Positions 11,261 to 17,405 of a stretch of DNA of 39,399 nucleotides are shown here, one piece after another (the first letter of the stretch is position 1; the number at the start of each line of letters is the position of its first letter). The stretch comes from Candidatus Collierbacteria bacterium (GTDB lineage Bacteria; Patescibacteriota; Microgenomatia; UBA1400; MFAQ01), in the NCBI GenBank assembly GCA_903873735.1, contig CAIQPO010000043.1, positions 1 through 39,399 of the forward strand, read 5' to 3'. The translations under genes were made by a program, and so were the position numbers. The notes beneath the pieces were generated by a model that was not told where the DNA came from, did not search any database, and saw only the letters and a program-made list of their open reading frames with translations.

Positions 11261-12037
11261 TTAATTACCAGTTTCAGCCAAATTCACAAACAAAGACACA
11301 ATCGTCAGAGGACCAACTCCACCTGGCACAGGTGTAATCGCTCTAGCCTTTCTTATCGCTCCCTCACTAAAATCAGCTTTCGGATATCCCAAATCAATAC
11401 CCACAAATTCATCCTTTACCATATTCTCAGTAATCAATTCCCCCGCCCCCGTCGCACCTATCACCACATCAAAATCTCTTAATAGATTTAAGTCATCACC
11501 CCTATCAAAGCCAGAAACCACAAAACCTAATTGGAGCAACCTCTCGTAAAGACGTCTTCCCACCATTCCTTCATGTCCAACCAAAGCAACACTCAAATCC
11601 CGCGCAATATTTAGTTTTTCAAAAACTGTCTCCACCGCCAAAACTACTGCAGGCACGAAGCTACTTTTCGGGTTTAATCCGTCTACATCTTTAGCCTCTG
11701 GCACTGTATACAAAATTTGCTCAACATCAATTTCTTCGACCCCTTTCATTGGCAGCTGCACCAAAATTCCATCTATGTCAGCCCTTTCATCTCCATTTAT
11801 AATTGTCTTTAAGATCTCTTCTTTACCATTGGCAAAAACCACTTCAACCACCGCACCAATTCTCTCTCCTGCCTCTCGCTTTAGTCTCACATATGTACTT
11901 TCTCTCCCCAAACCATCACACTGAATAATCATAAGCTTTTTACCCCTCAATAACCCTTGAACCTTTAAGCTTTCTTCTATTAAGGCAGCTTCTCTTTTTC
12001 CATCAAAGACTATCTTATTACTGGATATTTCTTGCAT
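11261..12037 (-). CDS. folD: Divergent methylene-THF dehydrogenase/cyclohydrolase
   Basis: FolD interconverts 5,10-methylene-THF and 10-formyl-THF. At 258 residues it is shorter than usual (about 285). The catalytic set is recognisable: Tyr and Lys in STYVRLKRE, Gln in DGILVQLP, Asp in KDVDGL, and the C-terminal PGGVGPLTI. Two usual motifs are changed: the PCTP segment is replaced by FVPAVVLAV, and the cofactor-side GRSxxVGxP is replaced by GHEGMVGRR. Cofactor or substrate handling may therefore differ. Its start overlaps the glyA stop by 28 bp, implying translational coupling. Confidence 0.85.
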   Translation of the reverse strand: MQEISSNKIVFDGKREAALIEESLKVQGLLRGKKLMIIQCDGLGRESTYVRLKREAGERIGAVVEVVFANGKEEILKTIINGDERADIDGILVQLPMKGVEEIDVEQILYTVPEAKDVDGLNPKSSFVPAVVLAVETVFEKLNIARDLSVALVGHEGMVGRRLYERLLQLGFVVSGFDRGDDLNLLRDFDVVIGATGAGELITENMVKDEFVGIDLGYPKADFSEGAIRKARAITPVPGGVGPLTIVSLFVNLAETGN

Positions 12038-13221
12038 AAGGTTGTTATTTTATCTAATAAATCGTTATTGGCTCCCCTATTAACCGAATGATCAATTACT
12101 TCAGCAATAATCTTCATCTCTTCCTCTCCAAGCCCCCTTGTAGTAATTGCCGGCGTACCGATTCTTATTCCTGATGGATTAAGTGGAGTACCTTTATCAC
12201 CAGGAATGGTATTTGCGTTTACCACAACACCTACTTTTTCAAGCTCCTTCGCCACTTCCCTACCCTTCCCCACTCCAACATCAACCACCATCAAGTGAGT
12301 ATCAGTTCCCCACACAACAAAACCTCTCCTTTTCAATTCACCAGACAATACTATTGCGTTACTCAACACTCGTTCGCAATACTCTTTATACCCTTCATCA
12401 CCAACTTCATACAAAGCCTGGCCTATACCTGCAATCGTATTCATGTGTGGGCCTCCCTGAAGTCCAGGGAAAACTGCCTTTTCAATCTTCTTTGCTAACT
12501 CACTATCCTTTGTCATTCCTCTTTTGGTCACCCCCAAAATTGCCCCCCTTGGGCCTCTTAATGTTTTATGTGTCGTGGTCATAACCACATCCACAAACGG
12601 TGACGGACTAAGCAGTGTTTTACCGGCAATCAAACCAGCAGTGTGTGAGATATCGGCTAATAAGATACAACTATTATCAGAAGTAATTTTACCCACTTTT
12701 TCCCAGTCGATTCTCCAAGGATATGATGTGCTCCCCACCACTACCAATTTTGGTCTTTCCTCCAAAATCACCCTTTCCATTTGTTCATAATCTATAAAGC
12801 CTTTTGTATCCAGACCAAACTTAAACGACTTAAACCATTTTCCCGTTATTGATACATCATGACCATGTGTTAAATGACCTCCACTACTAAGATTTAATCC
12901 CAATACTTTTTCTCCAGGGCTTAGAACAGCCAGATAAACTGCCAAATTTGCAGGGCTACCAGAGTATGGCTGAACATTAACCCACTCTAAGTCAAATATT
13001 TCTCTAGCCCTCATCTGCACATACTCTTCCAACTCATCCATGACAGCATTGCCCTGATAGTATCTCTTGTGGGGATAACCTTCGGCATATTTATCAGACA
13101 AACAAGAACCTACAACCTCCAATACCGCACTCGAAGTATGATTCTCTGAAGGAATGAGTGTAAGTGTGTTTTCCTGCCTCAGTCTCTCCTTATTGATTAT
13201 TTCCTTTATCAAAATATCCAT
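12010..13221 (-). CDS. glyA: Serine hydroxymethyltransferase
   Basis: GlyA converts serine and THF to glycine and 5,10-methylene-THF using PLP. Its 403 residues show the SENHTS opening, KRYYQGN, SGSPAN, ADISHTAGL, the PLP-lysine motif TTTHKTLRGPRG, and FPGLQGGPHMN. It feeds methylene-THF to FolD (overlapping gene) and to the ThyX-like enzyme at 15807. A GATAAT box 6 nt before the ATG and the absence of a spaced Shine-Dalgarno suggest a leaderless mRNA. Confidence 0.96.
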   Translation of the reverse strand: MDILIKEIINKERLRQENTLTLIPSENHTSSAVLEVVGSCLSDKYAEGYPHKRYYQGNAVMDELEEYVQMRAREIFDLEWVNVQPYSGSPANLAVYLAVLSPGEKVLGLNLSSGGHLTHGHDVSITGKWFKSFKFGLDTKGFIDYEQMERVILEERPKLVVVGSTSYPWRIDWEKVGKITSDNSCILLADISHTAGLIAGKTLLSPSPFVDVVMTTTHKTLRGPRGAILGVTKRGMTKDSELAKKIEKAVFPGLQGGPHMNTIAGIGQALYEVGDEGYKEYCERVLSNAIVLSGELKRRGFVVWGTDTHLMVVDVGVGKGREVAKELEKVGVVVNANTIPGDKGTPLNPSGIRIGTPAITTRGLGEEEMKIIAEVIDHSVNRGANNDLLDKITTLCKKYPVIR

Positions 13222-13227
13222 TCACCT

Positions 13228-13233
13228 ATTATC
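13228..13233 (-). promoter_or_regulatory. -10 box for leaderless glyA
   Basis: GATAAT, 6 nt, ATG. Confidence 0.45.
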
Positions 13234-13254
13234 TCACCTAAGAAGAAGATCCAA

Positions 13255-13881
13255 CTAGCACAATATACCAGCCATATTCATATAAGATAGGCAGTCTGAT
13301 ACCACCTCCTCTTTACTCTTAGATGCATCCACTACTCTCCAAAAATCAGGAAACTTTACCGATAACTCTAAGTAAGCATCCCTTACCCTTCTATGAAAAT
13401 CCAGCTCTTTCATGTCGTACCTATCAATATCACTACAACCTCTTTTCCTCAACAAAGCTAACTCTGGAGCCAAGTCGAAATGCAGTACCAAGTCAGGCAT
13501 CAAGCCTCTAGTAGCAATCTTACTTACTGCCACAATAATTTCTCTATCGATTTTTTCGCTCCCCTGATATGCATAAGTACTAAACCAATAACGATCAAGC
13601 AAAACCCCCCTGCTTTCTCTCTCTCCTTTGAGTACCGGCAGTATCTCATTTGCCACCAGGTTGGCTCTAGAAGCTGTGTAAGCGAAAAAAGATGCCATTG
13701 GGTCAATAACCAAATCTGGTCTCTGCTGTACTGCTTCCCTCATCAACTCTCCAAACTCAGTTCCCCCAGGTTCTCGTTTCAGCTCCCATAAAGGAAGATG
13801 TTCCATTAATCCATTTATCGCTGTAGTTTTACCACATCCACTACCACCCTCAGTCACCACAAACGGATATCTCTCATTCAT
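13255..13881 (-). CDS. tmk: Thymidylate kinase
   Basis: Tmk phosphorylates dTMP to dTDP. Visible motifs are the P-loop GGSGCGKTT, the substrate-binding REPGGTEFGELMRE, and the DRYWFSTYAYQG segment. The length, 208 residues, is typical. It overlaps the preceding 84-residue gene by 8 bp and lies two kilobases from the ThyX-like gene that would supply dTMP. The lid region around residues 145-160 is short. Confidence 0.9.
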   Translation of the reverse strand: MNERYPFVVTEGGSGCGKTTAINGLMEHLPLWELKREPGGTEFGELMREAVQQRPDLVIDPMASFFAYTASRANLVANEILPVLKGERESRGVLLDRYWFSTYAYQGSEKIDREIIVAVSKIATRGLMPDLVLHFDLAPELALLRKRGCSDIDRYDMKELDFHRRVRDAYLELSVKFPDFWRVVDASKSKEEVVSDCLSYMNMAGILC

Positions 13882-15806: not shown

Positions 15807-17405
15807 ATGACAAGAGAAATTTACCCCCAATCAGAATTTGAACACCACCAAAGCCACTCCAAAGTTTATCTAGTACTAAGATCTGAAAATCCCAATACCG
15901 ACACTAACTCTGAAGAAAACTATGCCACTACTATAGCTGGCCAATCTGGGCGCACATGTTATTCTGCCAACATTCAGTTCCCTAGTGACTACAGACACAA
16001 ATCAGATAAATACCGCCAAGTAACAGATGGAGTGGTCAGATCCACTCGAGAAGCAGGTCACCTTACCACCCGCCAACATGTTCACTACACTTTCGCCCTC
16101 GAGGGTGTATCAAGACTAGCAGTCAATTTCTTCCACTCTCATCCACACTACAATTCTGAAGAAATGAGTCAAAGATATGTAACAATCAAAAACAAGGAGC
16201 TAATTTCACCACAAACAGAAAATCCCGAAACTGCTGCCCTACTAGAGTCAGCAAGGATTGGTCTCATCTCAGGCTACGAGGAAATTACAGCAAGTCTTAC
16301 ACCCCTAGCTTTGTCAGAGCTGCAGGCAAGGTTTCCCGGAAGAAAAGGTGAACGATATCAAGAATTTTTTGAAAAAGAGGCACAAAAAAAAGCCCAAGAA
16401 GTAGCTAGATATTTACTACCACTTGGGACACCAACCAATCTTTATCACACAATATCTGAGCTCACACTTGTTCGCCTATATCACCTGTCAGAAACACTTC
16501 CTAATGGGACTGAAGCCAAAGCCATTGTCCAAGCCATGGTTGACACAGTTGCGGCAATAGATCCTAGTATCATTGATGAAATTGGTAAACCATACCCCAA
16601 ACCATATTCCCATACTCTTGCTCAGCCACTTCCAAAAGAGGCAAAAACAAACTTTGATTTGGCTATGACGGATAGCTTTTCACTCCAAGACACTCACCCT
16701 AATTTTATTTCCTCCCTCGCCAGATCTGTACAACTTACGCTCGGACTCGACATTCCAGAAGAGGAGTTGATTGGCTTACTGTTAGACCCCAAACAAAATT
16801 CTCTAATAAGTTCTGTCTGGGGAGAAACCGTACTCGACCAACTTGGTCTATGTTTAAATCAAGTACATCTCACTGGTTTAGTCTCGTTAAGCCACACTGC
16901 CAACTATCAACTTCACCGACATCGAGGCTTTACTCACACTGAACCCCTGATATTGGATATACCAGATCTTGACGATATCGTTATCCCAGCACTTATAAAA
17001 ACAAACTCTGAAATTGAAAAGCGTTATCTAGAAATTCACCATCAACATCTCCAAACTCTTCACCAACTCCAGGAGCAAGGCGTTAGCCTCCAGGAACTAC
17101 AATATTTACTCCCCAACTCCACCAGAGTCAGAAAGCAAATATCTGGTCCTTTGGGATCATATCTTCACTTCATCAAGTCAAGAACTTGTTTAAATGCCCA
17201 AGAGGAAATCTATCAAATCGCAGTTCAGCTAACCCAACAACTATCAATTCTTGAACCATCACTTGTTCCTTATTTGAATCAGCCGGCTCCATGTGGCTTA
17301 AGGAATCGAGCCTCAATCACACCCTACTGTCCTGAAGGCTCTCGTTTTTGTGGAATAAAAATTTGGGATTTAAATATTTCAGACTATCCTCAACGCACCA
17401 TATAA
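15807..17405 (+). CDS. thyX: Tandem ThyX-like protein (flavin-dependent thymidylate synthase, two modules)
   Basis: ThyX methylates dUMP to dTMP using methylene-THF and FAD. Normal ThyX is about 220-250 residues; this protein has 532 and two ThyX-like halves. The N-half has TTRQHVHYTFALEGVSRLA and a signature SHPHYNSEEMSQR (111-123), which keeps the E-x-S-x-R end but lacks both arginines of the RHR start. The C-half has an intact RHR (371-373) followed by GFTHTEP, and the later HFIKSRTCLNAQEEI segment typical of ThyX helices. The halves are thus complementary. ThyX active sites form between subunits, so the fusion may rebuild one site type per pseudo-dimer. The link to glyA, folD and tmk supports a role in dTMP synthesis. 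Confidence 0.8.
   Translation: MTREIYPQSEFEHHQSHSKVYLVLRSENPNTDTNSEENYATTIAGQSGRTCYSANIQFPSDYRHKSDKYRQVTDGVVRSTREAGHLTTRQHVHYTFALEGVSRLAVNFFHSHPHYNSEEMSQRYVTIKNKELISPQTENPETAALLESARIGLISGYEEITASLTPLALSELQARFPGRKGERYQEFFEKEAQKKAQEVARYLLPLGTPTNLYHTISELTLVRLYHLSETLPNGTEAKAIVQAMVDTVAAIDPSIIDEIGKPYPKPYSHTLAQPLPKEAKTNFDLAMTDSFSLQDTHPNFISSLARSVQLTLGLDIPEEELIGLLLDPKQNSLISSVWGETVLDQLGLCLNQVHLTGLVSLSHTANYQLHRHRGFTHTEPLILDIPDLDDIVIPALIKTNSEIEKRYLEIHHQHLQTLHQLQEQGVSLQELQYLLPNSTRVRKQISGPLGSYLHFIKSRTCLNAQEEIYQIAVQLTQQLSILEPSLVPYLNQPAPCGLRNRASITPYCPEGSRFCGIKIWDLNISDYPQRTI

Follow-up and report, generated by a model that had tools for sequence, protein, structure and literature searches.

What kind of protein is made by a reading frame that contains two ThyX modules, neither of which carries a complete active-site motif? 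The question arises from contig CAIQPO010000043.1 of the Candidatus Collierbacteria bacterium assembly GCA_903873735.1, whose positions 1 to 39,399 make up the 39,399-nucleotide window analysed here, and in which an uninterrupted frame at 15807-17405 on the forward (+) strand encodes a fused double ThyX of 532 residues, a probable flavin adenine dinucleotide (FAD)-dependent thymidylate synthase. The pattern of residues kept and lost by this protein and its relatives makes it very likely that it is a working flavin-dependent thymidylate synthase in which two ThyX modules are joined, each without the part of the active site that its partner retains.

The Pfam family PF02511 (Thy1) matches the frame twice, at 15927-16565 with 84.2 bits and at 16854-17246 with 56.6 bits, each exceeding the curated threshold of 24.8 bits; the whole protein scores 141.8 bits against the same family and, at 105.9 bits, passes the cut-off of 87.9 bits for the NCBIfam thyX equivalog TIGR02170. 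An AlphaFold2 model of the whole chain, for which an alignment of 31 double-ThyX family members was the input, is confident (mean predicted local distance difference test score, pLDDT, 88.6; predicted template modelling score, pTM, 0.89) and contains two segments, residues 19-251 and 291-482, in which helices and strands follow one another in much the same way. Its best Protein Data Bank (PDB) matches by Foldseek are Mycobacterium tuberculosis (Mtb) ThyX structures, chain D of 3gwc giving a TM-score of 0.75 by target length over 252 alignment columns with a probability of 1.00. A common ThyX fold had been set beforehand as a test of the sequence-only reading, an earlier interpretation made from the DNA letters that proposed complementary half-motifs, and the model, with its two ThyX folds and ThyX proteins as its structural matches, indicates that both modules do have this fold.

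The motifs themselves are found exactly as that reading had described them. Equivalent residues are numbered here as in Thermotoga maritima unless Mtb is stated, the numbering having been set by alignment to PDB chains with the offset taken from the R174A variant 5iot. In module 1 (15858-16580, +) the motif SHPHYNSEEMSQR at residues 111-123 (16137-16175, +) has lost the flanking arginines of RHR, with a proline at the R80 position, and keeps the E-x-S-x-R end with the S88 and R90 equivalents. In module 2 (16638-17402, +) the motif RHRGFTHTEP at residues 371-380 (16917-16946, +) has RHR intact and has lost the remainder, including the equivalents of S88, R90 and Y91; the later helix HFIKSRTCLNAQEEI, the HFIKSRT...AQEEI of residues 454-468 (17166-17210, +), is kept in this module and includes R459, the R174 equivalent. 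The complementarity also extends past the motif, to the equivalents of Mtb R87 and of R147, R174, Y91, H53 and T55. Module 1 of this protein has S88, R90, Y91 and R147 without R78, R80 and R174, and module 2 is the reverse; in the protein's own numbering, module 1 holds a half-site of the neighbour-subunit kind (H85, T87, H91, R103, S121, R123, Y124 and R201, of which R201, at 16407-16409, +, is the R147 equivalent missing from module 2) and module 2 one of the own-subunit kind (Q368, R371, H372, R373 and R459).

The same division is seen across 90 distinct family sequences, which are 26-49% identical to the 532-residue protein. The equivalents of Mtb R87 and of S88, R90 and R147 occur in module 1 of all 90 and in module 2 of none (R147 belonging with the S88/R90 set), and that of Y91 in module 1 of 89 and in module 2 of none. 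The equivalents of R78, R80 and R174 are present in module 2 of all 90, and in module 1 of 3, 1 and 4 sequences respectively; H79 is less telling, with its equivalent in module 2 of 89 and in module 1 of 61. Q75 has an equivalent in every module 2 (90/90), and H53, T55 (as T or S) and H59 in every module 1 (90/90), the helix with H53 and T55 being kept in module 1 only. In none of the 90 homologues does a single module contain the full RHR...S-x-R-Y signature contiguously; such a homologue would have counted against the sequence-only reading, which also stands up to this second test. Across both modules together all of the dUMP (deoxyuridine monophosphate) residues of one site (R78, R174, S88, R90, Y91 and R147) are present. 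These counts indicate that the split is not due to chance, and that it is a family-wide trait and not a quirk of this genome.

The partition corresponds to the way in which the natural site is divided among subunits. In Mtb ThyX, subunit A gives R95 and R199 (T. maritima R78 and R174) together with RHR, subunit B gives S71 and R190, and subunit C gives R87, S105, R107 and the lid residue Y108 (PMC6514825), while H53 is supplied by a helix of 'monomer-3' (PMC11940539). Module 2 keeps the subunit A residues and module 1 those of subunits B and C, with the exception of R165 (Mtb R190, subunit B); the residues kept and lost follow the subunit partition, which lends support to the earlier suggestion that each fused chain supplies both partial surfaces for sites lying at subunit interfaces. 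Residues that matter for catalysis lie in both halves: the enzyme reacts more slowly with dUMP when it carries S88A, R90A or Y91A, and R174 serves to activate dUMP (PMC8316439).

Half-motifs could also be a product of decay, in a protein of two ThyX-like modules that no longer catalyses or has become regulatory. No module has the canonical motif in full, and the structural matches include an atypical Corynebacterium glutamicum ThyX that is dispensable for thymidylate synthesis according to the titles of 3fnn and 3ge9. However, the kept halves are invariant over sequences as diverse as those of the family alignment, a pattern that decay would not produce, nearly all of the sampled family genomes are without ThyA, and genes for the methylene donor and for the use of the product lie close by (see below). 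We regard decay as highly improbable.

For a working composite enzyme we propose the following arrangement. Natural ThyX is a homotetramer, and each of its four sites draws on three subunits. Module 2 would take the part of the subunit whose RHR binds FAD and whose R174 activates dUMP. Module 1 would stand for the neighbouring subunits, contributing Mtb R87, S88, R90, R147, the Y91 lid and the helix that carries H53 and T55. A dimer of fused chains would then form a pseudo-tetramer in which only two of the four sites are complete composites. The reasoning is one of symmetry: let a module 2 occupy position A of a tetramer that has two-fold axes, and let the module 1 domains of both chains occupy B and C. 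Position D would then fall to the second module 2, whose site would be completed by that same pair of module 1 domains, leaving two sites whole and two dead. The H53/T55 helix survives in module 1 alone, so a site probably draws on the module 1 domains of both chains together with a single module 2, and the minimal enzyme is probably a dimer of fused chains. Methylene-tetrahydrofolate (methylene-THF) from the neighbouring serine hydroxymethyltransferase would be the source of the carbon that reaches dUMP by way of FAD, and the resulting thymidine monophosphate (dTMP) would be phosphorylated by Tmk. In this arrangement catalytic activity, the dimer and its two sites are inferred.

Fusion might of course have no role in assembly, if the chain were cut post-translationally or if the modules assembled as though they were separate, and the linker between them is variable in sequence and modelled with low confidence at residues ~261-270. 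Every complete family member found is nonetheless one open frame with both modules, there are no separate half-genes among the loci examined, and we give this alternative hardly any credence.

Homologues of the double ThyX are numerous, and the searches indicate a large family spread over many bacterial groups. A long homologue is present in 18 of 374 genomes of the window's class, and Candidatus Collierbacteria GWA2_42_17 (LCDA01000002.1) is a same-family relative. A scan of GTDB representatives yielded 164 encoding stretches, and the 80 of these that were kept include Patescibacteria, many Acidobacteria, Myxococcota, other 'Deltaproteobacteria', Sericytochromatia, a Woesearchaeote, a Euryarchaeote and others. 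The cultured Thermomicrobium roseum has a homologue with 35% identity on a 918-kb plasmid (WP_012643046.1), which is annotated as 'FAD-dependent thymidylate synthase' and, as judged by eye, has the same split. A frameshift or assembly artefact is ruled out as the source of the double frame, because complete homologues are found in many genomes and on a finished plasmid.

If the protein makes dTMP, is it the only enzyme of the cell to do so? There is no match to ThyA (PF00303) in the genome of the window or in those of its two nearest family members (G000, G001 and G014), and none to dihydrofolate reductase (DHFR) in the window's own genome. Across the class ThyA is present in 219 of 374 genomes, but it is found in only one of the 18 with a double ThyX compared with 218 of the 356 others (Fisher p 2e-6, for genomes that are related and not independent). 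In a further 40 family genomes, from other groups, ThyA matches are absent from 38 and are weak and partial in the remaining two (43 and 30.5 bits). The Thy1 matches listed for these 40 genomes all fall inside long double-ThyX frames. From these gene contents, the double ThyX is probably the cell's only thymidylate synthase.

Genes of the same pathway are found close to the double thyX, in a tight run at 11261-13881 on the opposite (-) strand. The run consists of a FolD-like methylene-THF dehydrogenase/cyclohydrolase (11261-12037, -; PF02882 and PF00763), serine hydroxymethyltransferase (glyA; 12010-13221, -; PF00464, 425 bits), which makes the methylene-THF carbon donor, and thymidylate kinase (tmk; 13255-13881, -; PF02223, 107 bits), which uses the product dTMP. 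Homologues of one or more of these genes, sought in flanks of up to 5 kb, recur near double thyX in other Patescibacteria: tmk at L033/L004, L006 and L037, glyA at L006, L036, L037, L054, L080 and L082, and folD at L033/L004, L005 and L037.

Several observations weigh against a working thymidylate synthase of this composite kind. The FAD contact R165 (Mtb R190) has no equivalent in either module of any of the 90 sequences, whereas module 1 always has an arginine at the N169 position (90/90), R223 in this protein (16473-16475). The FAD pocket is thus not the canonical one, and R223 may be a replacement contact for the lost R165. The genome of the window is 92% complete, so the absence of ThyA from it is by itself weak evidence, and one double-ThyX genome of the class, G316, also has ThyA. 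We found no biochemistry for any member of the family. The altered FAD pocket raises the alternative of an active flavin-dependent methylase for another substrate, either uridine monophosphate (UMP), as for the ThyX relative PolB, or a modified nucleotide. PolB is described as an unusual UMP C-5 methylase in a paper that also treats ThyX (PMC5003785). Set against this, the two modules together retain every dUMP-binding residue, the double ThyX is the sole thymidylate synthase candidate found in most of the family genomes, and its neighbours are tmk, glyA and folD, and we consider a different substrate very unlikely.

A second set of double ThyX proteins, distinct in sequence, surfaced in the Thy1 search. 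These proteins of 470-620 residues (family B, L143-L162; see also L164 and L165) occur in Patescibacteria, with relatives on plasmids of Bacillus, Paenibacillus, Parabacteroides and Euzebya and one in a Tunturiibacter phage, where the gene adjoins a deoxycytidine monophosphate (dCMP) deaminase. We note that two genomes of the class, G171 (L008 and L155) and G282 (L013 and L156), encode both a family B protein and one of the family described above (family A). In 18 aligned family B sequences the first module has kept S-x-R-Y/F and R147 and lost R78 and R174, and the second has kept R-[HNQ]-R and R174 and lost S88, R90 and R147. The two families thus both consist of two ThyX modules split in the same direction, with S-x-R-Y in the first and RHR and R174 in the second, whereas family B differs in that it mostly has R80 in module 1 and R165 in both modules, and shows no Cys tail.

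In a tree of the modules with 81 rows, each of the four module groups has a bootstrap of 100, but the branching order among the groups is not resolved, and approximately unbiased (AU) tests reject none of the groupings M2A+M2B (p 0.47), M1A+M2A (p 0.40) and M1B+M2B (p 0.10). We suggest only tentatively that families A and B go back to separate duplications, so that a symmetric four-site tetramer was converted on two or more occasions into an obligate pseudo-tetramer with two sites, the same complementary halves being lost each time. Were this so, dividing one symmetric active site between fused modules would be a path that evolution can take repeatedly.

Canonical homotetrameric ThyX, or flavin-dependent thymidylate synthase (FDTS; T. 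maritima TM0449 and Mtb ThyX), resembles the double ThyX in the fold of its modules, in belonging to genomes without ThyA and in its probable role in dTMP synthesis, and nearly all of its FAD and dUMP residues are present in the double protein once both modules are counted together. The double ThyX differs in its fused modules with half the residues each, in the missing R165 and in the arginine at module 1 position 169, and two sites would be expected for every four modules instead of four. Its gross architecture was known before: one sentence of a 2009 paper (PMC3224940) states that the Chloroflexi ThyX is duplicated and uncharacterised, and that it is also found in 'a few other species'. The protein described there has the domain duplication in common with ours, and the passages on it make no mention of complementary half-sites, of structure or of any wider spread. 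Because the T. roseum protein belongs to family A, the Chloroflexi protein is very probably a member of the same family. This was the only paper on fused or duplicated ThyX found in full-text literature searches, for which subscription papers were mostly beyond reach, and the same searches returned nothing on complementary half-sites in ThyX; the double ThyX is not a new kind of enzyme. A precedent for the principle of turning an oligomeric nucleotide enzyme into a single chain is provided by the monomeric herpesvirus dUTPase, a longer single chain with rearranged motifs and a single catalytic site that reportedly arose by duplication (PMC8961515), although this enzyme is viral and is unrelated in fold and reaction.

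If the double ThyX does function as proposed, many bacteria would depend for a DNA precursor on an essential enzyme designed with two sites active and two dead. This enzyme would provide a natural test of why ThyX sites sit between subunits, as the subunit of origin of a residue could be read from the sequence, and each half-site could be mutated without touching the other. T. roseum offers a cultured source for such work. The databases' plain label of 'FAD-dependent thymidylate synthase' would cover a protein whose single domains probably cannot work alone.

Module 2 ends in a C-terminal tail with C496, C508 and C515 (17292-17351, +), a feature common to some single-domain ThyX proteins, and together with C461 these make four invariant cysteines near the C-terminus (17187-17351). 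They may form a metal site or disulfides. The cysteine cluster is not specific to the double enzyme, since it also occurs in some of the single-domain ThyX proteins of the class (a subgroup comprising L113-L124, L136 and L137).
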